IMG/VR virus record: IMGVR_UViG_3300010160_000240
Coordinates: 1 to 22,688 of that record
Length of the DNA: 22,688 bases
Strand: one strand, 5' to 3'
From: a virus
Notes under the pieces: model-generated
Database searches by the model: none
What the model saw: the letters and a program-made list of their open reading frames with translations, nothing else
What the model was told of the DNA's origin: nothing
Position numbers and translations under genes: made by a program
Shown: piece after piece, positions 5,107-21,999 of the stretch
How positions within the stretch are numbered: the stretch's first letter is position 1
Layout of the letters: every line of letters begins with the position of its first letter

Positions 5107-5649
5107 TCAAAGGCGAGAGCCAGTAGATGTGTCGTATGTGCCATCATAAGACCAATAAGATATTGGGGTGATTGAAAAAGACGAAGCGCCTCCACTTGTT
5201 CCGTAGAATGTCATGCCTTCAAAGTCAAATGATTGTTCATAACCAGAATAATTTTGGGAAGTTATTGCAAGCCCCCCACCACCACCATCATCGTATAGTG
5301 CGGATATTTGGTAATCTGGAACAATCAAGTTACCATATGAATAGAATTGTCCACCACCGTACCAAGAGCCATTGATCGAGTTTAACGAGGAAGATGACAA
5401 AATTGTCCAGCTTGGATTACATACAATATCTTTTTCTTCTAATGCAGAGTTCTCCAAAACAATGCTAAAGGTTAGGGTTGAATCATCTTGGCCTGTGTAA
5501 GACCCGGTTATCGAGAATGAGCGCAACACCCAATACATTTTCATTGAATCTTCTACGCTTGCGGCTGTAAAACTAGATGCGCCACCCGAAAAGACTGGAA
5601 GGCAAAACGGAAAATAACCGCTGTAGCTAGCGTGTAATACTTTACCCAT
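5107..5649 (-). CDS. Hypothetical Gly/Ser/Tyr-rich virion protein, 180 aa
   Basis: I do not recognise the family. The 180 residues are unusually rich in S, G and Y, with a glycine run (YDDGGGGGLAI around 118-128), few lysines and no membrane segment. The alternation of aromatic and small polar residues suggests beta structure, as in tail-tip or fibre-accessory proteins. It sits between the giant fibre-like gene and the lysis cluster, a usual place for fibre tips, chaperones or receptor-binding accessories. ATG 5649 is preceded by AAAGACATCCT, not a recognisable Shine-Dalgarno, and an intercistronic hairpin lies just upstream. The role is inferred from position only. Confidence 0.6.
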   Translation of the reverse strand: MGKVLHASYSGYFPFCLPVFSGGASSFTAASVEDSMKMYWVLRSFSITGSYTGQDDSTLTFSIVLENSALEEKDIVCNPSWTILSSSSLNSINGSWYGGGQFYSYGNLIVPDYQISALYDDGGGGGLAITSQNYSGYEQSFDFEGMTFYGTSGGASSFSITPISYWSYDGTYDTSTGSRL

Positions 5650-5658
5650 AGGATGTCT

Positions 5659-5676
5659 TTAGGGCATCAGCCCCAA
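5659..5676 (-). promoter_or_regulatory. Intercistronic hairpin between fibre gene and next gene
   Basis: TTGGGGC-TGAT-GCCCTAA forms a seven-pair stem (one G-T) with a four-base loop, four bases after the fibre-gene stop and ten bases before the next ATG. No T-run follows, so it is not an intrinsic terminator. It might modulate initiation or protect mRNA ends. Confidence 0.35.
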
Positions 5677-5679
5677 GGC

Positions 5680-8600
5680 TTATTCTAAAACTCGCTTGGC
5701 GAGGCTGACCGTGGCCTGTGCGACAACTTGTTCATTCGTTCCGTCAGTCTCAAACACTTCCATCAGAATATCCTTTTGGGTTGCTGTGGACAGGATGGCG
5801 TTAGCTGAGGCAGTTGTGATGTTAAAGGTTAGGTCTAACTGATTTCTTTGTAACTGTAAGGATTGTGGTATGGGAGGCTTGGGGAAAATAATTGCTGGGT
5901 TATTTGTAAAGCCATAACCCCTATCCAAAACATTGATATTTTGCAACTGCCCATTCTGTATTGTCGGATTATCTAATCTAACACCAAGTCCAGTTGCGTC
6001 TTGTATTGTTGCGCTATAATTGTTGCTGGTATAATAAGAGCCAGCACAAGTGATAGAAATAGAGGAAATAATAGACCCCGCTGGCGTTGGGACAGAAATG
6101 GCTGGTGCTGAAGTATATCCTTCGCCGCTTTCGACAATTACATAGTTACCGCTAAGGTTGTTATCAACAATATAATTTACCTTGGCGGTCTGTCCTCCAA
6201 CGGGGGCTGTGCCAACCGTGGCCTCGTATGTTCCCGGTGCATACCCAGCCCCCATAGTCGTTATGGCTACTGACGAAAGCAAGCCATTAGGTGCGTCTGG
6301 GCTTGGTGCGGTAACAATAGGCACAGAGGTATATCCTGCACCAGCATTGACTATCTGAAATACATATTTTGATTCTGATTCTTTAATAAGATTTGCAACT
6401 GCATTTCCCCCCGATTGTGGGCTTTGTTGGATTTGCAATGAGTAGGCTTGTCCAACCTTATATCCGTTGGGACTATTTTGCAATTCAAGGGTATTTAAGA
6501 ATCCAGACTCTAATCTCCTATCTGGGTCTGGTGCTGTGGCAACTTGCGTTGTTTGATAGCCAAAGCCGGGGTTTTCAATAACTACGCTTACAGACCCAGA
6601 GCTAGATTGCGTGAACAGAACAGAGGCTTGCCCTCCGTCTATTGGGCTGGTCGGAACAGAAAGAGAGAATGATTGCCCTATGGAATATCCTTGAGGTTGA
6701 GTTAAAACAGAAACACTTTTTACTTGCCCACTAATAAAGTTTGGTGCTGGGGCGGTTACAATAGGAGCAGAGGTGTATCCGCTACCACCACCTACAACTA
6801 CAATTTGAGATTTTGTCCCCCCCCTACTCACAATTAAATCTATTTGTGCCGCCGTTCCGGAGGCGGGGGATTGCACAGAACAGCTATATGTCCCATCTGA
6901 ATACGAGGCTGGCGCATTAAGCAGGGTGGCAGAACGAACTAGGCCAAGAGTTTGAACGGTTTGAAATCCAATGTTTACGCTTTTTGTGTATCCAACTCCA
7001 CCGCTTCCTAGCAGATATTGAACAGAGGCTGGGCCGGGTCGAGTTGTAATAGAGGCGGGTTGCGAGAAGGGCGAATCAATAAATCCAAGATTGAAAGTAG
7101 CTGGCATAGTATAGACAGTTGCCCCACTATACTCAAAGATAACTGGGTCGCTGGTTAGTGTGCCTAACTCAACAATATCAAACCCCTCTCTATATGTGGA
7201 TGGATACCCCGCCCCTGCATCTAATAGCCTAAACTCTGGCGTAAATCTGCCTCCTCCAAAGTCTTGAAAGCCAAATTCTGAGCCGTTAACGCCTATATCT
7301 ACAACAGCTACTTGATACGATGTGTCTCTAGGCGGGATTACAATTTCCATAACTGCGTATCGGGTCGGAGCAAAATTCCTATTTTTTGGAACAATGGCAA
7401 CTCGTGCGCTTTTGCCAGCAAATTTTTCGTGTTGTGGGTTGGCATATTGATCTGGGGTATTTCTAATGGTGCTTAAAATTTGCTTGCTGGTAGGCGTTGC
7501 GTTTATATTCAAAAGTCTTTGGGGATTTATTGTCCCAATAATTGCAACGCCGTACATAAGCACAGGCGTTCCACGGGGAAAATATGTGGCGTATGCCTCT
7601 GATGTAATTTGACCGCCGCTGGGCAAGCCAGAAGATTCTGCTGGTCTAAATACTCTGGTTTGCTGGGGATCAAATATTGACCCAGTTACAACAACCCCAA
7701 TATTATTTAATAATTGTGTGCCATACCTAATAACTTTTGCGGTATTCCTCCGAAGTTCTGCTTTATCGTTGCCTCTTGAACTGAAATTCTGATTGAGGCC
7801 TCCAAATCTGCCACCATCCCGCCCCAGCCCACCAGTAATAAATTTACACATATCGGGGAAAATGCCCGACCCATTCCCAAACCTAACATTAAGGCCGCCA
7901 AGATTGATCTTTGTTGCGGTTTCAGAAAAGGTGGTTACTGGAGTTCTAATCATTCTCCCAAATTCGCCACCTCCAACAATAGTTTTATCAACAACGCTAG
8001 AGTACCATGCATTTACATCAGTCGTTTGACCTTCACTAAACCCCACCCTTGCAACAGGCAAGAACGCTAGAATATCGTCGTGCGATACGGTTGGAGTGGT
8101 TGTTGTAGAATATCCATATCCCACATCAGTAATCGTGGTTCTCCATAAAGTACCCGACCCAGTATATGCTATTGAGGCAACTGGTCTTTTGGATGTCGGG
8201 GGTGTTTGTGCACCATCTGGGTCGCTAAATATAAGAGAGGTTTCGTTTGTGTTTACTCCCTTACACCCCAGATCAACAATCCCTGTGCCAGTTGCATATA
8301 ACGATCTTGTTGGTCTAAAAAGCGTTACAGCCGGAGCGGAAAGATAACTAAACCCCCCGCTTGTAATTGTTACTGACTGAATAAATCCTCCGCTTGCTAC
8401 GACAGTTGCTACAGCAGTTCCCGGTGTTGGCGCATCAAGGGTGACGCTGGGTGCAGTTAAATAGTTAGTTCCTCCATTAGTAATAGTTATTTTATTGATT
8501 GAGCCATTAAGTGAAGATGCAGTTGCCGCCGCCGAAGTTCCAGTTGTTGCGCTAAATACTAAATTAAATGGCCCAACTCCGTAACCAAAACCGCCAGTCA

Positions 8601-10329: not shown

Positions 10330-11784
10330 TTATTTTGCAACAGCGGCTGGTATTTTGCTTGAGAGTGCTTCGATTGCTTTAAGCAGGGCTGAAAATGCTT
10401 CTTCCTTGGGTGCTTTCACTCCTTTTGTTTCCATCCCAAAGGGCTTCCTCTGATCTTCAAATCTTTGAGCGGCGTTTGTTGCGGCCAGCTCGGCTGGGTT
10501 CACGCCAGTTCGTTGTCCTTGAATCTGCTCCATAAGACTAGGAGCATTTGCGGCCGCTTGTTGGGCGGCGAGCTTCTCTCTGTCTCTTTGCTGCCCAACT
10601 CGCATTGGCCCAAGCGATCCTCCCTGAACTTCAGTTCCTGTAAGCTGATCTGCGGTGCGAGCGTTTTCAGTCTTTAGCTCTCTCTCTCGCCTTTTTGTGG
10701 CCGTGGCCATCGCTTGCCTACCCGCTGGGGTTGCTCCAAGTACTCCCCCAACCGCCTCTCTTGCGGTTTCTTTCTTTTGTTTGTTTTCATCTCTAGTCCT
10801 TACCGCATCTCTTAAAAGTCTTGAGAATTTTCTATCATCAGCATCGCTCTCCATCCTAATCTTTTCGTCTAGGTTGTAGCGCTCTTCCCTATAAATTCTT
10901 TTATTGTTATCTATCTTTCTCTGCACTCGTTCTTGCTCTGTCTTTTTCTCTCTTGCCTCTGATTGGTTCGCCAACTTTTGTTCTGCATCAAAAACCATTT
11001 TATCAAACTTGATCTGTTCCTCCGCGCTTTTCTTGGATTGTCTATCTAGCTCTGCCCCTCGGTCTCTTGCAAACTTTGATGCACTTGCGCTACTAAACTC
11101 CTCTCGGGCTTGTGGGTCTTTTATGCTTTCTTGGAATTTCTGCCTTTCCCTATATTGTTGGCTAATTTCCTCTAGCTTTTTCCCTTCTTCATCTAGCCCA
11201 GACAACCTTTCTTCGTTTATGTTCTGGCTTATCATTCCAGCCGCAAGCTCTAAATCCCTTAGTCGTTGTTGCGATTGCTGTAATTCTTCGATGGATTTTC
11301 TTGTTCCAGTTATACCAGCAATAAAGTTCTTAAGTGGGCTTCGGTCTAGCTCGGCCAATGTTTCGGTTATCGATGATATGTTTGCCTCTAGTCCTTTGAC
11401 TTGTGATTGAGCCTCGGCAAGACTGATCGCACCACCCGCATTGTCTATGTCTTGAAATGCCTTAGATGCGGATTGGGCAACCCCCCTTGCAATCTCTCCC
11501 ATCTTTTCAATTTGATCTGTAAAGATTTTAACAGAACCAACTGCGACAGCCCCGACAAGAGATTTTCCTATAATGTGGGCAAGACTATCAGCCGCCCCAG
11601 CCGCTACATCTGCCCCAGTTCGTGCCTCTGCTAGTGTTCGGCTGAAATTGCTAAATGCTCCCCTTGCTTTCTCCCCACTTATATGAAGTCTTTTAACTGC
11701 ATTTGCCGTATCGTTGACGGCCTTGTCTGCTCCTCTGTTGTCCCCTCGAACCCTAAGCATTAGTTCTTGTGATGCGTCTGCCAT
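10330..11784 (-). CDS. Short tail tape measure protein, 484 aa
   Basis: The protein is mostly helical and highly charged, with long coiled-coil stretches from about residue 150 to 430 rich in E, K, R, Q and A (for example QQSQQRLRDLELAAGM). A hydrophobic alanine/glycine segment lies at about 62-85 (AAGAADSLAHIIGKSLVGAV). These are the marks of tape measure proteins, which set tail length and later pass through the membrane. At 484 residues it is short; using the general rule of roughly 0.15 nm per residue, the tail would be near 70 nm. It lies downstream of the frameshifting chaperone, with one gene between, and upstream of tail-tip genes, as expected. ATG 11784 follows the previous stop by one base and has AGGG upstream. 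Confidence 0.75.
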   Translation of the reverse strand: MADASQELMLRVRGDNRGADKAVNDTANAVKRLHISGEKARGAFSNFSRTLAEARTGADVAAGAADSLAHIIGKSLVGAVAVGSVKIFTDQIEKMGEIARGVAQSASKAFQDIDNAGGAISLAEAQSQVKGLEANISSITETLAELDRSPLKNFIAGITGTRKSIEELQQSQQRLRDLELAAGMISQNINEERLSGLDEEGKKLEEISQQYRERQKFQESIKDPQAREEFSSASASKFARDRGAELDRQSKKSAEEQIKFDKMVFDAEQKLANQSEAREKKTEQERVQRKIDNNKRIYREERYNLDEKIRMESDADDRKFSRLLRDAVRTRDENKQKKETAREAVGGVLGATPAGRQAMATATKRRERELKTENARTADQLTGTEVQGGSLGPMRVGQQRDREKLAAQQAAANAPSLMEQIQGQRTGVNPAELAATNAAQRFEDQRKPFGMETKGVKAPKEEAFSALLKAIEALSSKIPAAVAK

Positions 11785-11785
11785 A

Positions 11786-12571
11786 TTACAACCCTATCTT
11801 GTCACTTGATTCTTTGTTTTTTCTTCCAAGATATACATTCATGTCTTTCATAACTTTCTGTACTGCCTCAGCAAGTCCGGGGCCACCGATCTTAACCGCC
11901 CCAGATATGGCTCTCTTCCTTACTGGATAAAATCTAGTGTCCTTATCGCCGGCACGATTAAAAATAATGCCTTCCATCAATGCTTTTTTGTTGTCTGCTT
12001 TTGTTCCCCCACCAAGCCTCATTATTGCTTGCTTGCTATAATCACCCCTTGTAAGAGACGCTTTCTTGCCAAATACGGAGGCCGCCGCCGCCCATCCGTT
12101 CCTTATATAGTTAACAGACCGCTTGCGACCAGCTACGAGCCTTCTTGCTAGATGGCCAATCGTGGTTGGTTTTCCACCCATTCCAAGCCCACCCACCCCA
12201 ATTTTCGTTTTCCCAAGAGTTGCAAGCCCTCTATTTTTAAGCAACCAATTTACTAGCTTGTATGTTCCAGCATAGCTTTCGTTTCTTGCAAAAAATTTCT
12301 TGGTTTCTCCAATTTTGCGTTTTATGATTTTACCATTCTTACCAACTCCGATAGGCTTATAGATGCCCTTGGTTTTTACAGAAGAAACAATGCGCTCTAG
12401 TTCAGAAGCTATTTGTGCTGAGTTACTTCGGTATGTTGTCCCAATGGCTGTAATTGCTACATCGCCAAGTTTGCTATTGATAACATCGGCCATATTCTTT
12501 CGGCTTACACTTTGATATTGTTGTAGTTTATGAGCAAATTGAGCTTGGTTCAAAAGGTCAATCGTTATCAT
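11786..12571 (-). CDS. Basic tail-module protein of unknown role, 261 aa
   Basis: This 261-residue, strongly basic protein lies between the tail chaperone and the tape measure, which are more commonly adjacent. The first 60 residues look helical (LNQAQFAHKLQQYQSVSRKN). The middle is lysine/glycine-rich (YKPIGVGKNGKIIKRKIGET, and IGVGGLGMGGKP). The C-terminus again looks helical (LAEAVQKVMKDMNVYLGRKN). I do not recognise the family. Candidates are a minor tail or tape-measure-associated protein; a virion DNA-contacting protein is also possible given the charge. The ATG at 12571 has a clear GGAGAG ribosome site inside the end of the frameshift extension, which stops four bases earlier. Confidence 0.65.
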   Translation of the reverse strand: MITIDLLNQAQFAHKLQQYQSVSRKNMADVINSKLGDVAITAIGTTYRSNSAQIASELERIVSSVKTKGIYKPIGVGKNGKIIKRKIGETKKFFARNESYAGTYKLVNWLLKNRGLATLGKTKIGVGGLGMGGKPTTIGHLARRLVAGRKRSVNYIRNGWAAAASVFGKKASLTRGDYSKQAIMRLGGGTKADNKKALMEGIIFNRAGDKDTRFYPVRKRAISGAVKIGGPGLAEAVQKVMKDMNVYLGRKNKESSDKIGL

Positions 12572-12574
12572 ATA

Positions 12575-12781
12575 TCATTTCTCTCCGTCAAGAATAGTAT
12601 CTATAATGCTATTAGCACCAACGCTTTGTCTCCTAACCTCGAAGCCTTTGTTGATCATAATGGCGTGTTCAATTTGGCCGATCTGACATTCGGATAGTTC
12701 CCAAATAATATAGTCTCTTTCCCACCCAAACTCCTTTGCAAAAAGCCAGACGGTAGAAGCTATCCCGGCTGGCCTTATTGT
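12575..12781 (-). CDS. Frameshift extension (gpT-like part) of the tail assembly chaperone
   Basis: This frame has no convincing start of its own but is open from inside the 3' end of the chaperone gene, one base back, to a TGA at 12577-12575. After a -1 slip on CCCAAAA, translation continues TIRPAGIASTVWLFAKEFGW, then ERDYIIWELSECQIGQIEHA and on to ILDGEK. That adds 68 residues to the first 126, giving a 194-residue fusion. The W..AKEFGW.RDYI..L.....Q..A pattern resembles the T part of lambda G/GT-type chaperones, which binds the tape measure or tail tube during tail assembly. The short product alone is made by normal termination. The downstream ribosome site for the basic protein is embedded in its end. 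Confidence 0.8.
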   Translation of the reverse strand, partial: TIRPAGIASTVWLFAKEFGWERDYIIWELSECQIGQIEHAIMINKGFEVRRQSVGANSIIDTILDGEK

Positions 12782-12787
12782 TTTGGG
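12742..12787 (-). promoter_or_regulatory. Programmed -1 frameshift signal: CCCAAAA slippery site plus hairpin
   Basis: The heptamer C CCA AAA (12787-12781) fits X XXY YYZ in the chaperone frame (GAC CCA AAA). Four bases later a hairpin can form: AAGGCCAG (12776-12769) pairs with CTGGCTTT (12749-12742), with one G-T pair. It continues after a single mismatch with CGG/CCG and, past two unpaired bases on one side, TAG/CTA around a CTT loop. The zero-frame stop TAA lies just past the slippery site. Confidence 0.82.
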
Positions 12788-13158
12788 TCTGAATCTCCTC
12801 CACCCGTAGTCACCCTAGAATCGGCAATCTCTTTGAAGGTTTCTTCTACAATCCTAACCGCCTCTGTGAAGTCCTCCTCCTTGAATGAATCTGCCCAATC
12901 AAGAACCGCACCCCGAAACTTTGCCTTGTCCCAGCCTAGCGAGATTAGTTTCGTCCTATCATTGACCAAGGCAAATAGGGTTGACCAAATAAAGAACTCG
13001 GTTGAATCAGAATCTTCCCTAACTTGCCCCAAGATGATCCTGTGCCCAAGGCTGAACTTGTTTAGCTTCTGTCCCTTAAAGGTCTTTTCTGTCATCACAA
13101 AAGATTTGTCGAGGGATTTGTTTATGATCTCTTCATCGTTTACTAAGTCGTGGTTCAT
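12775..13158 (-). CDS. Tail assembly chaperone, short form (gpG-like)
   Basis: This is the zero-frame product of 127 residues ending GGGDSDPKQ. It is acidic and mostly helical (for example AKFRGAVLDWADSFKEEDFT at 79-98, then EAVRIVEETFKEIA) and has a flexible tail carrying the slippery site. The features match the first part of G/GT-type chaperones: location downstream of the tail tube genes and upstream of the tape measure, a glycine-rich C-terminal linker, and a second frame that continues. In such systems the short form is made in large excess over the fusion, and the ratio matters for tail assembly. ATG 13158 overlaps the stop of the preceding gene as ATGA and has no strong ribosome site, so it is probably coupled. 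Confidence 0.8.
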   Translation of the reverse strand: MNHDLVNDEEIINKSLDKSFVMTEKTFKGQKLNKFSLGHRIILGQVREDSDSTEFFIWSTLFALVNDRTKLISLGWDKAKFRGAVLDWADSFKEEDFTEAVRIVEETFKEIADSRVTTGGGDSDPKQ

Positions 13159-13559: not shown

Positions 13560-13913
13560 CTAACTTATTCCATCGTATCGAACTGCCGTAAAGCTGACTT
13601 CCTCGAAGTTATCTGCGCTTCGGTTTCTAGAAACTTCCGTCACATAGGCCGCACCAGCAAGATCAAAAGAGCTTCCGTTGGCTACGGTTATGACTGCACC
13701 AACCAAGGCACTGAAAGTTGTATAAGCACCCGACACGGAGTGAGTAACTTTCTTATTGCGGAAGGCAACCGCAGTAACATCCCCGCTTTTGTTTTTTAGC
13801 TCAACAGAATCAGCAGAAGCAGAGGAGGAAATGGATTTGATAACCATTCCGGTCTGGTCGCTCGTAGCTCCAAACTTGAGGTTCGTGCCAGTTCCGATAA
13901 TTGTGGCGGCCAT
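13560..13913 (-). CDS. Tail tube-like protein, second copy, 117 aa
   Basis: This 117-residue beta-rich protein starts MAATIIGTGTNLKFGATSDQ. It is related to the next gene upstream in transcription: both begin MAAT-IG, then have FG, a G-hydrophobic-VI-S-S segment, an A-E/D stretch, G...AVAF at about position 45-52, a following (V)SG and a final beta-like part. Small, beta-sandwich-like, non-membrane proteins just upstream of the chaperone and tape measure are usually major tail or tail tube proteins. Two in tandem suggest either a mixed tube or one tube plus a decoration or tail-end variant. ATG 13913 has AGGAA nearby and begins one base after the previous stop. Confidence 0.65.
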   Translation of the reverse strand: MAATIIGTGTNLKFGATSDQTGMVIKSISSSASADSVELKNKSGDVTAVAFRNKKVTHSVSGAYTTFSALVGAVITVANGSSFDLAGAAYVTEVSRNRSADNFEEVSFTAVRYDGIS

Positions 13914-13914
13914 A

Positions 13915-14271
13915 TTAAGTTCCTAGTCCGTTGTAGGCGGTTGCGCTTAGATCGAATGTAGCAAACCCATCAGAAGCCTCAGAGAAAGAGGCATCAGTTA
14001 CATAATAAGTTCCAGAGGAAACAGCCGTTGAGTTAGATGTAAGCGCAAGGGTCTGACCAATTCCACTCGATGCAACCGCCGCACTACAATTCCCAGACAT
14101 GCTTATGTTCCTGCGATAACCGGAAAAGGCAACAGCCAAGTGCGTTCCATTGTGTGCCGATACCTCTGTGGCTTCGGCAGTTTGCGCTAAAGAAAAACTC
14201 TGAATTACAATTCCAGACTCAGACGCAAGCCCAAAAGCCAAACCAGTCAATCCGATAGTAGTTGCCGCCAT
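13915..14271 (-). CDS. Tail tube-like protein, first copy, 118 aa
   Basis: This 118-residue beta-rich protein (MAATTIGLTGLAFGLASESG) is paralogous with its downstream neighbour by shared landmarks: N-terminal MAAT-IG, FG, the VIQSFSLAQTAEATEV segment, LAVAFSGYRR at 45-54 and NISMSGNCSAA. The copies differ enough that the duplication is not recent. The position before the tail chaperone fits a major tail protein. There is no enzyme motif. ATG 14271 is preceded by AAAGAAATAGCAA, an A-rich site without clear pairing to the 16S tail. The gene lies 16 bases after the coiled-coil gene stop. Confidence 0.65.
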   Translation of the reverse strand: MAATTIGLTGLAFGLASESGIVIQSFSLAQTAEATEVSAHNGTHLAVAFSGYRRNISMSGNCSAAVASSGIGQTLALTSNSTAVSSGTYYVTDASFSEASDGFATFDLSATAYNGLGT

Positions 14272-16790: not shown

Positions 16791-17279
16791 TTAAATGGTG
16801 GGCAGATAGAAGCTGTTGAGGGCATCGCTAAAGTCATAATCCCTAAGCCCATCAGCATTTGCGTCTGGGGTGACGATAAAAGATAGGGTCAAGCCCCTTT
16901 GCCAAGCTCTTTTGCTCGCCCTTATGCTTGGGGATTGGGAGGTGATTCTGCCCATAAATATCTTCAAATCAGTTACATTGTCTTGAACTTTAGTGACTAG
17001 AGTATTGTTGTCGCTGTATAGTGCGGAAAATATGCTGTAATAAGTATCATCAAAAACAGACTGGGTAGTGCGAGCGGTTGAATCGGAGTAGTTAAGTTCA
17101 ACGCTTATCTCGAATACACCGGAATATGGAACGATCTGTTGGCTTCCAATAGATGCATTGATTGACGCATAAGGGAACAACCTTAGCCCTGTTCTGTTCG
17201 TAGTATATACATTCAGCCCCGAGACTGGGGTTAGTAGGCTCGCCAAGGCATCTTCAACTTTGAACTGGGGAGAGGTCAT
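16791..17279 (-). CDS. Tail-terminator/neck-like protein, second paralogue, 162 aa
   Basis: This 162-residue protein is a paralogue of the previous gene product. Shared landmarks in order are MTS, a helix with ALASLLTPVSGLNVY, a TGLRLFPYASI segment, IGSQQIVPYSGVFEISVELN, FDDTYYSIFSALY, LKIFMGRITSQSPSI, and an R.W...L.L end. The size and alpha/beta layout suit a tail-completion or terminator protein that caps the tube, but the assignment is by shape and place, not by a diagnostic motif. A longer frame starting at 17321 exists; I use ATG 17279 because it overlaps the upstream stop as ATGA. It has an extra C-terminal segment (TPDANADGLRDYDF) not seen in its partner. Confidence 0.62.
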   Translation of the reverse strand: MTSPQFKVEDALASLLTPVSGLNVYTTNRTGLRLFPYASINASIGSQQIVPYSGVFEISVELNYSDSTARTTQSVFDDTYYSIFSALYSDNNTLVTKVQDNVTDLKIFMGRITSQSPSIRASKRAWQRGLTLSFIVTPDANADGLRDYDFSDALNSFYLPTI

Positions 17280-17683
17280 AGCGATGTGCAGGTTGTCTCT
17301 AGGGAGATTGTTTTTGACCAAGTACGATTGGCAGACAGCACGGCGGGGGATTCAGAGACTACATTAGCAATAAACACCTTGAGCGTGGCCGTGGTTAGAA
17401 CACTAGCCAAGTTTGGGCTTTGATACATTACTTGCAAAATCTCTTGGAACTTAGAATCAAAGGCCGCTCTGGTTGTGGTGTCTGCTCTGGTCGAATAGGT
17501 GACTGAGATTGGGCATTTGAAAACCCCGCTGTAAGGAATGATCTCCTCCGAGCTAATAGAAGACTCAACCACTAGGCTAGGCAATAGTCGAAGTCCCTCC
17601 GTGTCCCTCTTGAAAATGTTTAGGCCGGTTGAGGAGAGGGCGGTTGCCATTCCGTTCTCTAACTGCCTCTCAATGGAAGTCAT
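17276..17683 (-). CDS. Tail-terminator/neck-like protein, first paralogue, 135 aa
   Basis: This 135-residue protein begins MTSIERQLENGMATALSSTG and contains EGLRLLPSLVVESSISSEEI, IPYSGVFKCPISVTYS, FDSKFQEILQVMY, LKVFIANVVSESPAV and a final RTWSKTISLE. All of these correspond in order to segments of the next gene, so the two arose by tandem duplication. The alternating helix-strand layout and 130-160 residue size resemble small phage neck and tail-terminator proteins; I have no decisive motif. ATG 17683 lies one base after the preceding stop and has no Shine-Dalgarno, so it depends on coupling with the upstream gene. Confidence 0.62.
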   Translation of the reverse strand: MTSIERQLENGMATALSSTGLNIFKRDTEGLRLLPSLVVESSISSEEIIPYSGVFKCPISVTYSTRADTTTRAAFDSKFQEILQVMYQSPNLASVLTTATLKVFIANVVSESPAVLSANRTWSKTISLETTCTSL

Positions 17684-18021: not shown

Positions 18022-18693
18022 TCAATCTGCTTTTATCATGCCGTCAAAGTCCCAAACATTCTGCACCGCAAACTGGTTTCTCTCTGGAAAGAACATGGTT
18101 TCTTTCTCCCTTCTAACTGAGGATGCCAAGATCATAGGTGAACTATTGATGCCCCAGAAGTTCTCTGCCCCCCGAATCGCCCTTGCCATTTCTGCAACGC
18201 TTGATGCCGTGTAGGTATCTAACCCCGCTATCTTAATATCTGCCGTTGTAAGCACATAGAAGTTGTCTTTGCCTAGCTGTTGCCTTGCATCCTTTATGAG
18301 TGCAAGGGGGTCTCGGCGGTCGCTTTGGCTTATCCCGAAAGGTGCGACTAGGTTGTACTTTTCTGGAAGTCCTTTGGCTGGCTTATCGTCTAACAGATCG
18401 AGGACGATGTTTGTCTTGTCTGCATCCTTAATTTCTGGGTGTGAATAAACAAACTCGTGCCAAGGGATTTTGCTTGCCATAAATGCCTCATACCGAGTTG
18501 GCCATATTTCTAGGTCTATCTTATCGCCTTTGTTTCCTCGCTTACAATAAGAGACCATTTCAAAGACTCCCGCATATTGCTCGTAACAATCAATGAAAAC
18601 CTCGTGGCCTTTGTCGGCTAGAAACTTGGCGGCGGGTAGGCATCGAAGGACATCCCCAAGACGCTCCCGGTAGATAATGGTTTTAGCGGTCAT
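18022..18693 (-). CDS. GT9/heptosyltransferase-like glycosyltransferase (GT-B fold), 223 aa
   Basis: The protein resembles a shortened ADP-heptose:LPS heptosyltransferase-type enzyme. RERLGDVLRCLPAAKFLADK at 9-28 is the typical N-terminal GDxxxxLPA helix, followed by GHEVFIDCY as the first strands. KYNLVAPFGISQSDRRDP at 112-129 begins the second domain, and WGINSSPMILASSV at 180-193 corresponds to the donor-binding loop usually read as GxDSGPxHLAxA. At 223 residues it is shorter than the usual 300 or more, so the GT-B fold is minimal. The start ATG 18693 overlaps the previous gene by 11 bases; a longer frame upstream reads through that gene and is not needed. It probably transfers a sugar in the same pathway as its neighbours. 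Confidence 0.66.
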   Translation of the reverse strand: MTAKTIIYRERLGDVLRCLPAAKFLADKGHEVFIDCYEQYAGVFEMVSYCKRGNKGDKIDLEIWPTRYEAFMASKIPWHEFVYSHPEIKDADKTNIVLDLLDDKPAKGLPEKYNLVAPFGISQSDRRDPLALIKDARQQLGKDNFYVLTTADIKIAGLDTYTASSVAEMARAIRGAENFWGINSSPMILASSVRREKETMFFPERNQFAVQNVWDFDGMIKAD

Positions 18694-19450
18694 CAGCCAC
18701 GCTCTTGTCTTGGAGATGGTGAAAGTATTCGGATAATCTGACTGGGCCAGTTGTTTTTTGCAGTTCCTTCCATCCATCCACCAACCCGCTATACCCATAG
18801 AAATCTTGCTTAAACTCAACTTGTTTCTGGATGGCGTAGGCATAGTGATCGAACACTAGCCCCCAAGTTTCCGTCACTCCCCTTGGCACTAGCCTAGATT
18901 GAATGTTGAGCCGCGGGGGTTCGTGACTCGTAAAGCATACGCCCTTGCCCCACTTCCAAGCTCGCATCCATTCATACCAGTTAGACCCGAATCCTTCCCT
19001 TGTAACCACTCGCTTGTTTTCGCCTACGAAGAAATTGCAATGAAACTGCATCGTACATCCATCCTCCGCTCCCTTTAGACATTCATAGATTCCCTCGATC
19101 TGTTCTGCTCTCCACATTTCGTCGCAGTCCACTTCCATAACTACACCGGAATCTACTCCAAAGAGGGCTTGTTGAATCATCTCTAGCTTCCCGCTGAATG
19201 GTTTGCCCTGCGAATAAACAACAACATTCCCGCCTTGGATGCTTTCAATATATTCGTGCGTTCCGTCTATGCTCTTAAAGTCCTTGTGCCACTTGTCGGG
19301 GATTTGCTTGCACCATCGAGTACATCCTAGAGGCTCGCTCACCCCCTCTACAATTCTCCATTGCCAAGGGATTTTTAACTTCTGAAACTCTGCAAGATGC
19401 TTCTCTATAAAGGGCATCCCATTGAGAACGATGGTGAAGATGGTCAACAT
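18683..19450 (-). CDS. GT-A-like glycosyltransferase, 255 aa
   Basis: The N-terminus, FTIVLNGMPFIEKHL at 5-19, is the typical opening of family-2-like glycosyltransferases. VVMEVDCDEMW at 103-113 supplies the DxD-type motif (D108, D110) that binds metal and the nucleotide-sugar phosphate. The region between is compact, and the C-terminal part is rich in W, Y and H (for example YEWMRAWKWGKGVCF, RGVTETWGLVFDHYAYA), probably the acceptor side. No membrane segment is present. The ATG overlaps the end of the methyltransferase gene by seven bases, and its stop overlaps the start of the GT9-like gene by 11. The donor sugar cannot be inferred. Confident in fold class, not in substrate. Confidence 0.75.
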   Translation of the reverse strand: MLTIFTIVLNGMPFIEKHLAEFQKLKIPWQWRIVEGVSEPLGCTRWCKQIPDKWHKDFKSIDGTHEYIESIQGGNVVVYSQGKPFSGKLEMIQQALFGVDSGVVMEVDCDEMWRAEQIEGIYECLKGAEDGCTMQFHCNFFVGENKRVVTREGFGSNWYEWMRAWKWGKGVCFTSHEPPRLNIQSRLVPRGVTETWGLVFDHYAYAIQKQVEFKQDFYGYSGLVDGWKELQKTTGPVRLSEYFHHLQDKSVADDR

Positions 19451-20055
19451 AACTGAAAGATGGCCGCACCATTCCTACAAGACATATCTTCCCAGAGAAG
19501 GGTGGCTGTTCGCTTTAGCTTTTCATAGTTTGCGTGGTTCTTAATGTCGTTCACATCGTCTAGGGCGATGATTGTTTTCTCCGCTAGGAAGGGTCGGACG
19601 CAACGCAGTTCCGATTCCCCAGAGAAAGGCGAGCCATCAATCAATACAAAGTTAAAATCCACTTGATGATCAAAGTGAACATCCTCGATTGCGCTTGTCT
19701 TATATTGGTAGGCGGTTTCAAGGCAGACATTGTGCCAGCCCAAGACTTGCTCTAGTGGGTACTGGTTTAGTTTGGTTTTGGTGTTTTGATAGAACTCCTC
19801 AATATCTTTCTTGTTCAGCCATAGGCTCGATATAGTTGCCGTTCCGTTGATCGCAACACCCCCTCTAGCAGATAGGTTCATAGCGTGTCGGCCTATATGA
19901 TCTGGATGGTTCTCTATGCTGAATAGTTTCTTGGTCTTGATACATTGTGTTGAGCCGTCCCCTGTTCCTCCTCCAATCTCTAACCCTACATCTAGCCCCT
20001 CGCTATATTTTTGGAGGGCTTGGCCGAATGAATCGTGGATGGTTATTTCTTGCAT
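19444..20055 (-). CDS. Class I SAM-dependent methyltransferase, 203 aa
   Basis: GLEIGGGTGDGSTQCIK at 24-40 is a good motif I for S-adenosylmethionine binding. LFSIENHP at 44-51 resembles motif II with the acidic residue that holds the ribose. FNFVLIDGSPFSGESE at 135-149 and KTIIALDDVND at 160-170 look like later strands of a Rossmann-type methyltransferase, similar to those acting on sugars or small acceptors. There is no DNA-methyltransferase NPPY or DPPY motif. Flanking glycosyltransferase genes suggest it methylates a sugar or caps a glycan; a protein acceptor remains possible. I start at ATG 20055, preceded by GAGATGG and overlapping the previous gene by 13 bases, because the 27 residues upstream look non-coding. 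Confidence 0.72.
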   Translation of the reverse strand: MQEITIHDSFGQALQKYSEGLDVGLEIGGGTGDGSTQCIKTKKLFSIENHPDHIGRHAMNLSARGGVAINGTATISSLWLNKKDIEEFYQNTKTKLNQYPLEQVLGWHNVCLETAYQYKTSAIEDVHFDHQVDFNFVLIDGSPFSGESELRCVRPFLAEKTIIALDDVNDIKNHANYEKLKRTATLLWEDMSCRNGAAIFQLC

Positions 20056-20375
20056 TTTGCCATCTCTAATAATGCCTTCTTGATCACATATTGAATTACG
20101 GCTTCTGGGTCTTGCTTTAGGGCAAGCATCCCGCACTCAAACAACTCTTTCTCTGCCTTCTTGTCATAGGTAATATCAACATCAACGAACTTGGTTTTGC
20201 AGGGTCGGAACTTACCAAAGGTGACTATACCGATCTTATATGGGGTTAGCCTATCGAGGCAAGATTGATTCCAGTAAGTTTTTTTAGCCCACCCACTATC
20301 TTCCCGAGAGTGCCCCTTGGTATCCTCGCCCTTTTTGGCTTTCCTACATCCAATTATTTGCTTTGCGCTTTTCAT
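20043..20375 (-). CDS. Hypothetical basic protein in the glycosylation cassette, 110 aa
   Basis: This 110-residue, lysine-rich protein was not recognised. The first 35 residues are very basic (MKSAKQIIGCRKAKKGEDTK). KIGIVTFGKFRPCKTKFVDV at 47-66 and the next residues are beta-like, and the C-terminus looks helical (AEKELFECGMLALKQDPEAV, then IQYVIKKALLEMAKCKK). Five cysteines, including CRK near the start and CKK at the end, might bind metal. It starts at ATG 20375, which overlaps the large glycosyltransferase gene by 32 bases and has AAAGGCAAAGCC upstream. Overlaps on both sides tie it to the cassette, perhaps as an adapter or accessory. Confidence 0.6.
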   Translation of the reverse strand: MKSAKQIIGCRKAKKGEDTKGHSREDSGWAKKTYWNQSCLDRLTPYKIGIVTFGKFRPCKTKFVDVDITYDKKAEKELFECGMLALKQDPEAVIQYVIKKALLEMAKCKK

Positions 20376-21999
20376 ATATGGCTTTGCCTTTCTCGTAGTA
20401 TTCTGGTTTATTGTGGTTCTTAAGCTGGTCGTCTGGGTTGCCCCCTGCAAACATAGGATTTTCGTGTTTGAAAACTAAGTCCCGAGCTTCGATAACTACA
20501 TCATCAGCATAAGCCCTGTCGGTGTGCTCGTTGTCTCCGTAAATCCCATCGCTCTCTTGGTAGTCGGGGTGGAACATATGCCCCCCTTGCTTCCTTAGTC
20601 TCTTTTGCGTTAGGATGGCCATACAAAGGAGTTTATCTGTCCTAAGCCCATCTGATACTGCCAACACTCTTTCAGCCTCTAGGTTGCCAATCCTGCTCAA
20701 AATTAGGGCATCCCAATATCTAGGTGGACTCCAATCATCGCTCATTTGAACTATCACCTCGCTTTTGGCTAGTTTAGCCCCAGCGTTCCAAGCATTGACT
20801 ATGCCGCCCGGATTCACCCTAATTCCATTGTGAGGCGTGTAGTCCACCTTCTCGTCCTCATCCACCATAAACAACCACTCAACCGCAAGTGGTTCTTTCG
20901 CTAGGGCGAGCCATTGCATCTTCCGCTGAAAAGCTATGTGTGGCCTTCCCCTTGTAGCGTGGATAATGCTGATCTTTGGCTTTGGGTACATATTGCCTAG
21001 CTTCTGCGCTTCTTCCTTTTGCCCATAACAAACCGAGGCTATCCGATAAGCGTCCAGAGCTTGCCAATCGTAGATGCCGTGAACTTGATTCCAGTAGTGA
21101 AGGGTTGGCCTTGGCATCGCCATACAAGCCCTTCCAGAGTGCCAAGCCTTAGGCCAATCGCCCCTAGCTGAATACTCGGCCATCAAATAGAAGTATGCCT
21201 CCCTGCGAATCGGGTTTATGGCAATCGCTTCCCCTAAGTATCTGAATCTCTTTTCATTTGGTGAGCATCTCCCAAGGTTACAGAGAAGTTCATATTTAAG
21301 AGTCTCGTCTAGGTCTTGGAATACCAAAGCTCTTTCCCCTACTTCAATGGCCTTGTCTATCTGTCCCCTTAAGAAAAACTCTTGGTGTTGATAGTAAAGA
21401 TTGAATGGGGCAGAGGTTAGTTCATCGGCTAAAATGCGATGGTTTCTATCGGCTGAATCTGCCTTGCTTGTGATTGGTCTATGAATCCTAAGTATCTTAT
21501 CAATGGCCAAGAGCTTCCCCCTATCATTCGGCTCAAGGGCTTCATGAACTCTGTTCCTCCACCTACCGCATCCCTTCCGCAAGGCCATCTCCCTAATAGG
21601 GTTGAGGCCAGCGTTCTCAACCAGATATCTAAAGCAAACAATTTCAGCCCCCACCTTCTCGGCTTGTTCTAGCCCTTCCTCTAAAATCTTTTCTCCATCC
21701 TCTGCCATTATATCGTCAGCATCTACCCATATCGACCATTCATTTTTACAGGCTTCTAGGGCGGTGTTTCTAGCCGAGGCGAAGTCATCTATATGAGGCC
21801 AATCCAGTTTTTTATTTTGATAATGAATAACTCTAGCACCGAGAGAAAGTGCGATCTCTTCCGTCTTGTCGGGCGTAGCTGTCCCCCGAGCCATACATAC
21901 AACAACCTCCTCTGAGATTGGCTTAAACGATTCAATGACTCGCTTGATGTGGGCTTCTTCATTGCCAGCAATTAGATAAAGGGATACAGGGATTTTCAT
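20344..21999 (-). CDS. Two-domain glycosyltransferase with a central helical (TPR-like) region, 551 aa
   Basis: Residues 1-190 form a family-2 glycosyltransferase: VSLYLIAGNEEAHIKRVIES at 5-24, and WVDADDIMAED at 91-101 with the DxD-type metal motif (D93, D95). Residues about 195-335 read as helical repeats (FRYLGEAIAINPIRREAYFY, LMAEYSARGDWPKAW), TPR-like and possibly an acceptor platform. Residues 340-551 begin with KISIIHATRGRPH, a second family-2 opening, and include VIVQMSDDWSPPRYW at 415-429 as the DxD-like site. Two catalytic units in one chain suggest that it adds two sugars in turn, or one active and one binding unit. It is the first gene after the capsid terminator; ATG 21999 follows GAAATCCCAA with no standard ribosome site. 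Targets are unknown. Confidence 0.8.
   Translation of the reverse strand: MKIPVSLYLIAGNEEAHIKRVIESFKPISEEVVVCMARGTATPDKTEEIALSLGARVIHYQNKKLDWPHIDDFASARNTALEACKNEWSIWVDADDIMAEDGEKILEEGLEQAEKVGAEIVCFRYLVENAGLNPIREMALRKGCGRWRNRVHEALEPNDRGKLLAIDKILRIHRPITSKADSADRNHRILADELTSAPFNLYYQHQEFFLRGQIDKAIEVGERALVFQDLDETLKYELLCNLGRCSPNEKRFRYLGEAIAINPIRREAYFYLMAEYSARGDWPKAWHSGRACMAMPRPTLHYWNQVHGIYDWQALDAYRIASVCYGQKEEAQKLGNMYPKPKISIIHATRGRPHIAFQRKMQWLALAKEPLAVEWLFMVDEDEKVDYTPHNGIRVNPGGIVNAWNAGAKLAKSEVIVQMSDDWSPPRYWDALILSRIGNLEAERVLAVSDGLRTDKLLCMAILTQKRLRKQGGHMFHPDYQESDGIYGDNEHTDRAYADDVVIEARDLVFKHENPMFAGGNPDDQLKNHNKPEYYEKGKAIYEKRKANNWM

Follow-up and report, generated by a model that had tools for sequence, protein, structure and literature searches.

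In phage lambda, a low-level -1 shift yields gpG and gpGT at a ratio of about 30:1; the partner of G is the tape measure protein, and that of T is the tube subunit (PMC5009743). The G/GT arrangement is conserved widely among long-tailed phages despite low similarity, and in E. coli C_CCA_AAG is prone to shifting (PMC5009743). Chaperone genes of the HK97 type gave 6-7% shifting in reporters (PMC3711429). The records of HK97 and P2 also annotate -1 shifts.

The DNA analysed here (the window) is an entire virus record of 22,688 bases. From its sequence and those of its relatives we hold, with high confidence, that one gene of this long-tailed phage would specify two products through a -1 slip, a 127-aa G-like protein and a 194-aa GT-like protein.

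The locus resembled G/GT of lambda in the size of the short form (140 aa in lambda), in the heptamer near its 3' end, in a -1 extension that lacks a start codon, in its place between tube-like and putative tape measure genes, and in an A.E[MF]G motif close to where the T part begins. On the other hand, lambda slips on G_GGA_AAG, its T extension is 144 aa long against 68 aa here, and its tape measure gene follows directly, whereas here a 261-aa ORF intervenes. Sequence similarity to lambda was not significant.

In HK97 (gp13/gp14) the short form is 128 aa, and an extra gene (the gp15 moron) likewise lies between the chaperone and tape measure genes. The HK97 T motif can be aligned by eye with that of the window without gaps, but homology was not detectable. 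P2 E/E+E' is similar in that a small chaperone, extended briefly by a -1 shift, is encoded ahead of the tape measure gene, and in the form of its T motif. It differs in its contractile tail, another slip site and a shorter E, again with no detectable homology.

Slip site and reading frames

The features of the locus are collected in Table 1. The final codons of the 127-aa ORF are GAC CCA AAA CAA TAA, which places the heptamer in the X_XXY_YYZ register. The sequence-only reading had proposed a slippery heptamer in the frame of a chaperone gene, a zero-frame stop just past it, a -1 frame open for 68 codons and a fusion of 194 residues. Each of these was found as described, and its coordinates and counts were right to the base.

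Table 1. Features at and around the G-T junction of the window
Feature	Coordinates	Strand	Remarks
Probable tape measure protein	10330..11784	-	484 aa, two genes downstream; named from position and sequence character
261-aa ORF between T part and putative tape measure gene	11786..12571	-	conserved place, highly diverged, 230-267 aa
-1 frame T-like extension (predicted)	12575..12781	-	68 aa, begins TIRPAG; no start codon of its own; stop ends at 12575
3' stem-loop (candidate stimulator)	12742..12776	-	AAGGCCAG 12776..12769 pairs with CUGGCUUU 12749..12742
Inner hairpin pairs	12767..12765 with 12753..12751	-	CGG with CCG; three further pairs
Zero-frame stop TAA	12775..12777	-	single sense codon CAA between heptamer and stop
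Slippery heptamer C_CCA_AAA	12787..12781	-	P-site Pro CCA, A-site Lys AAA
Shine-Dalgarno-like GGAGG	12797..12801	-	9 nt upstream of heptamer; candidate 5' stimulator
Zero-frame ORF, G-like short form of putative tail assembly chaperone	13158..12775	-	127 aa, ends DSDPKQ*
Two tandem paralogous tail-tube-like proteins	13560..14271	-	117 and 118 aa, upstream of G

Among the window's own ORFs, X_XXY_YYZ occurred in register at 0.0034 per codon, or about once in 300, and CCCAAAA occurred in register a single time. Taken alone, the window made only a moderate case for a frameshift signal beyond chance.

Scanning IMG/VR with the T and G parts yielded 32 contigs, of which 31 contained the entire junction. 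These contigs came from many samples and, with the window included, represented 28 distinct G-T sequences. An additional scan with a broader T alignment returned these 32 contigs again, and it brought up no relative in which the slip site varied or T was a separate gene. Searching an annotated phage collection with both parts by tblastn gave no match, and no relative was found in bacterial or archaeal genomes.

All 31 contigs that cover the complete region carried CCCAAAA unchanged and in register. This was decisive in placing the putative frameshift signal far beyond chance. The 28 sequences are mutually related, and the number of independent events is therefore smaller than 28.

Conservation of the heptamer went beyond that of the protein. 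Fifty codons of G had an invariant residue and could vary silently; three were fixed in DNA, and two of the three were the CCA and AAA of the heptamer. The usage of CCA and AAA in these phages is only about half. The base preceding CCA was always C, yet four different codons supplied it. By the fixed codons and the constant C, the slip site is selected as DNA or RNA.

Immediately 3' of the heptamer stood UAG in all relatives except the two nearest the window. This adjacency, together with the ability of AAA to re-pair fully with AAA in the -1 frame, would fit slippage of a single P-site tRNA at a slowly decoded stop (AAA then UAG), in place of tandem slippage, in most relatives. In the window and its two nearest relatives, however, CAA precedes the stop, and the DNA invariance of CCA and the C before it is explained by tandem slippage but not by slippage of a single tRNA. 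We regard single-tRNA slippage as unlikely. The CAA UAA of the window (12775-12780, minus strand) and of these two relatives offers a natural test of whether slippage gains from an adjacent stop.

The T extension was 65-70 aa long in all relatives. Downstream of the slip site, the -1 frame showed a pN/pS of 0.27 and no stop within 60 codons in any sequence. In the two remaining frames, pN/pS was 1.15 and 2.18, with medians of four stops. Upstream of the slip site, the pN/pS of the zero frame was 0.22 (28 sequences). By these ratios, both sides of the junction are under purifying selection. The 207-base stretch said to look non-coding unless frameshifting was assumed is thus coding, by the selection in its -1 frame.

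A gene seen split in just one metagenome contig always leaves room for a sequencing or assembly error, or for a decaying gene interrupted by an indel. Assembly error was excluded because contigs with the same arrangement, 31 in all, came from many samples, and the purifying selection on both sides of the junction also speaks against a gene in decay. The probability of such an origin is negligible. A run of four A residues is too short for transcriptional slippage of the known kind.

A T frame that is so clearly coding might instead be translated as a separate T protein, through independent initiation or reinitiation within the overlap, and a G-rich stretch does lie upstream of the junction. 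Ahead of the conserved core, however, the T frame contained no ATG, GTG or TTG in the window and in 30 of the 31 relatives; the sole exception was L032, with one GTG upstream. This scarcity of starts makes independent initiation unlikely. None of the 31 homologues had an independent T gene with a conserved start, the arrangement named in the sequence-only reading as contrary to frameshifting. Separate translation also leaves the DNA-fixed codons of the slip site unexplained, and we consider it highly improbable.

Sequences flanking the heptamer

An 8-pair hairpin four bases past the heptamer, with further pairs inside, had also been proposed, and it was present as such. It contains one G-U pair and has a minimum free energy of -15.6 kcal/mol. 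Compared with dinucleotide shuffles it was not exceptional (z -0.8 and -1.2). This unconvincing comparison was replaced by a control that preserves the protein, in which synonymous T codons were chosen at random. In such shuffles of the window, the energy of the hairpin was reached in 0.6% (p = 0.006) and its pairing score in 0.2%. For eight other sequences, the pairing score was reached in at most 2.6% and the energy in 0.6-25%.

The pairing was kept across the family. Positions 12774..12765 and 12744..12753 formed nine of ten standard pairs in every sequence, and the odd mismatch in this ten-pair stem shifted between clades. Sliding the partner by 1-3 columns lowered the pairing from 90% to 19-48%. 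One pair, and no more than one, was compensatory, with C-G replaced by U-A through changes on both sides.

The kept pairs, the sliding control, the compensatory pair and the strength relative to synonymous shuffles make it likely that the hairpin serves the RNA, with few independent events behind it. We interpreted the downstream stem as a conserved stimulatory RNA structure of the predicted signal, with a single compensatory pair.

Upstream of the heptamer, pairing with the anti-Shine-Dalgarno sequence of 16S rRNA was strongest at 5-9 nt before the heptamer across the family, with a mean of -9.3 kcal/mol. Synonymous shuffles of the window matched the pairing of its GGAGG in 76% of trials, and those of other sequences in 3-75%. 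The G-rich stretch encodes a glycine linker, and in the window the glycine codons account for the pairing. It is a possible extra stimulator of the frameshift.

This layout recalls E. coli dnaX, in which a hairpin lies a few nucleotides downstream of the slip site and a G-rich stretch that pairs with the anti-Shine-Dalgarno sequence lies about 9 nt upstream. The window differs from dnaX in that glycine codons explain its upstream element, and in that its gene starts mostly lack a strong Shine-Dalgarno site. That the family, unrelated in sequence to known G/GT, uses a dnaX-like signal of three parts (GGAGG, C_CCA_AAA and hairpin) to reach an unusually high share of the extended form is a tentative and rather unlikely suggestion.

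On the minus strand most ORFs, and G with them, have no strong Shine-Dalgarno site ahead of the start. The scarcity of such sites may reflect a host that makes little use of them.

Taken together, the invariant heptamer, the selection on the T frame, the scarcity of starts, the DNA-invariant codons and the hairpin make ribosomal -1 frameshifting a very well supported prediction.

Gene order and identity of the products

In eight relatives examined, the genes followed the order of two terminator-like genes, two tail-tube-like genes, a 128-aa gene and G-T, continuing with a gene of 230-267 aa, a tape-measure-like gene of 430-484 aa and a gene of 200-225 aa. These neighbours were labelled from position, length and weak hits: no significant match was obtained in Pfam, and the PHROG and PDB searches gave only weak hits.

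The 484-aa putative tape measure protein matched no family, and its role was assigned by position; its place was kept in the eight relatives as an ORF of 430-465 aa. The 261-aa ORF had no family match in the Pfam and PHROG searches. One relative, L068, carried an additional 247-aa ORF after T, at 5587-6330.

The two tail-tube-like paralogues were 33% identical to each other (E 4e-13), and the pair was conserved in the relatives. The 118-aa copy gave a weak PHROG match to a major tail protein (E 0.013). An adjacent pair of tube-like proteins is unusual in a simple long-tailed phage. Tandem paralogous terminator-like genes of 162 and 135 aa, 33% identical and also conserved as a pair, lay at 16791-17683 (minus strand). 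The doubling of both the terminator-like and the tube-like genes suggests that a tail module was duplicated. Inside the structural module, at 18022-21999 (minus strand), lay several ORFs (551, 255 and 273 aa) that were named glycosyltransferase-like or sugar-related from sequence character only.

The T parts of lambda, HK97 and P2, taken from their records, share A..[MF][GH], 8-10 residues and M[ST]..E[LY]. This motif in a slightly wider form, the widening having been made after the data were seen, was present in 17 of 18 T sequences of the family. It occurred in at most 0.015% of shuffles (three sequences tested) and not once in 32,102 residues of single-frame ORFs from the window and its relatives. 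Profile and ungapped alignments to the T parts of lambda, HK97 and P2 were not significant (shuffle p 0.86, 0.35 and 0.72). The pattern in the -1 frame had been called typical of T; it held up fairly as a T-like motif but does not amount to proof.

Neither the G part nor the T part gave a significant match to any family in Pfam, PHROG or PDB. The nearest was phrog_33493, a tail assembly chaperone family, with a weak E of 0.27. Homology to a curated chaperone family is common but not required, and such families often lack detectable similarity to one another.

AlphaFold models of both parts were mostly helical, with a reasonable pLDDT of 78.5 for G and a moderate 72.4 for T. The G model matched no solved structure in PDB, chaperone chains included, and G is therefore without detectable resemblance to solved chaperone folds. 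It gave one significant viral match, to A0A6J5S158, a phage protein of 137 aa (E 1.3e-4).

From position and gene order, size, architecture and the T-like motif, we infer a tail-chaperone (G/GT) identity. The G/GT label of the sequence-only reading was thus upheld in position and architecture, and direct homology was not found for it.

With no homology to named chaperone families, and with a gene intervening between T and the putative tape measure gene, the frameshift could be real and its product some other two-product phage protein of the structural module. Against this stand the gene order, beside the tube-like paralogues and a tape-measure-like gene, as well as the sizes, the mostly helical G and T models and the T-like motif. 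G/GT frameshifting is, moreover, widely conserved at this place in long-tailed phages (PMC5009743). We consider a product other than a tail chaperone unlikely. The gene very probably encodes a short and a frameshift-extended tail-assembly protein.

Proposed mechanism and meaning

In the mechanism that we propose, the majority of ribosomes would stop at UAA and release the 127-aa G-like protein. A minority would move back by one base at C CCA AAA, the Pro and Lys tRNAs slipping in tandem to CCC AAA, and the hairpin a few nucleotides downstream would aid the slip. The slipped ribosomes would read 68 further codons to give the 194-aa GT-like fusion. On the lambda model, the portion common to both products would coat the tape measure protein, and tail-tube subunits would be recruited by the extension. 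The slip site, the frame-specific selection and the conserved hairpin stand at the level of sequence; the slip itself, its rate and the chaperone function are what we infer.

The general picture of phage tail assembly is unchanged by these results. They correct an annotation, in that the 68-residue T part would escape a gene caller. The 28 natural variants can be used to test which parts of the -1 signal matter. Frameshifting is a textbook phage trick, predicted here in a protein family without a name in the libraries searched. The locus would add a well-conserved frameshift of the G/GT type to a group of uncultured phages whose tail genes are without a family match in those libraries.
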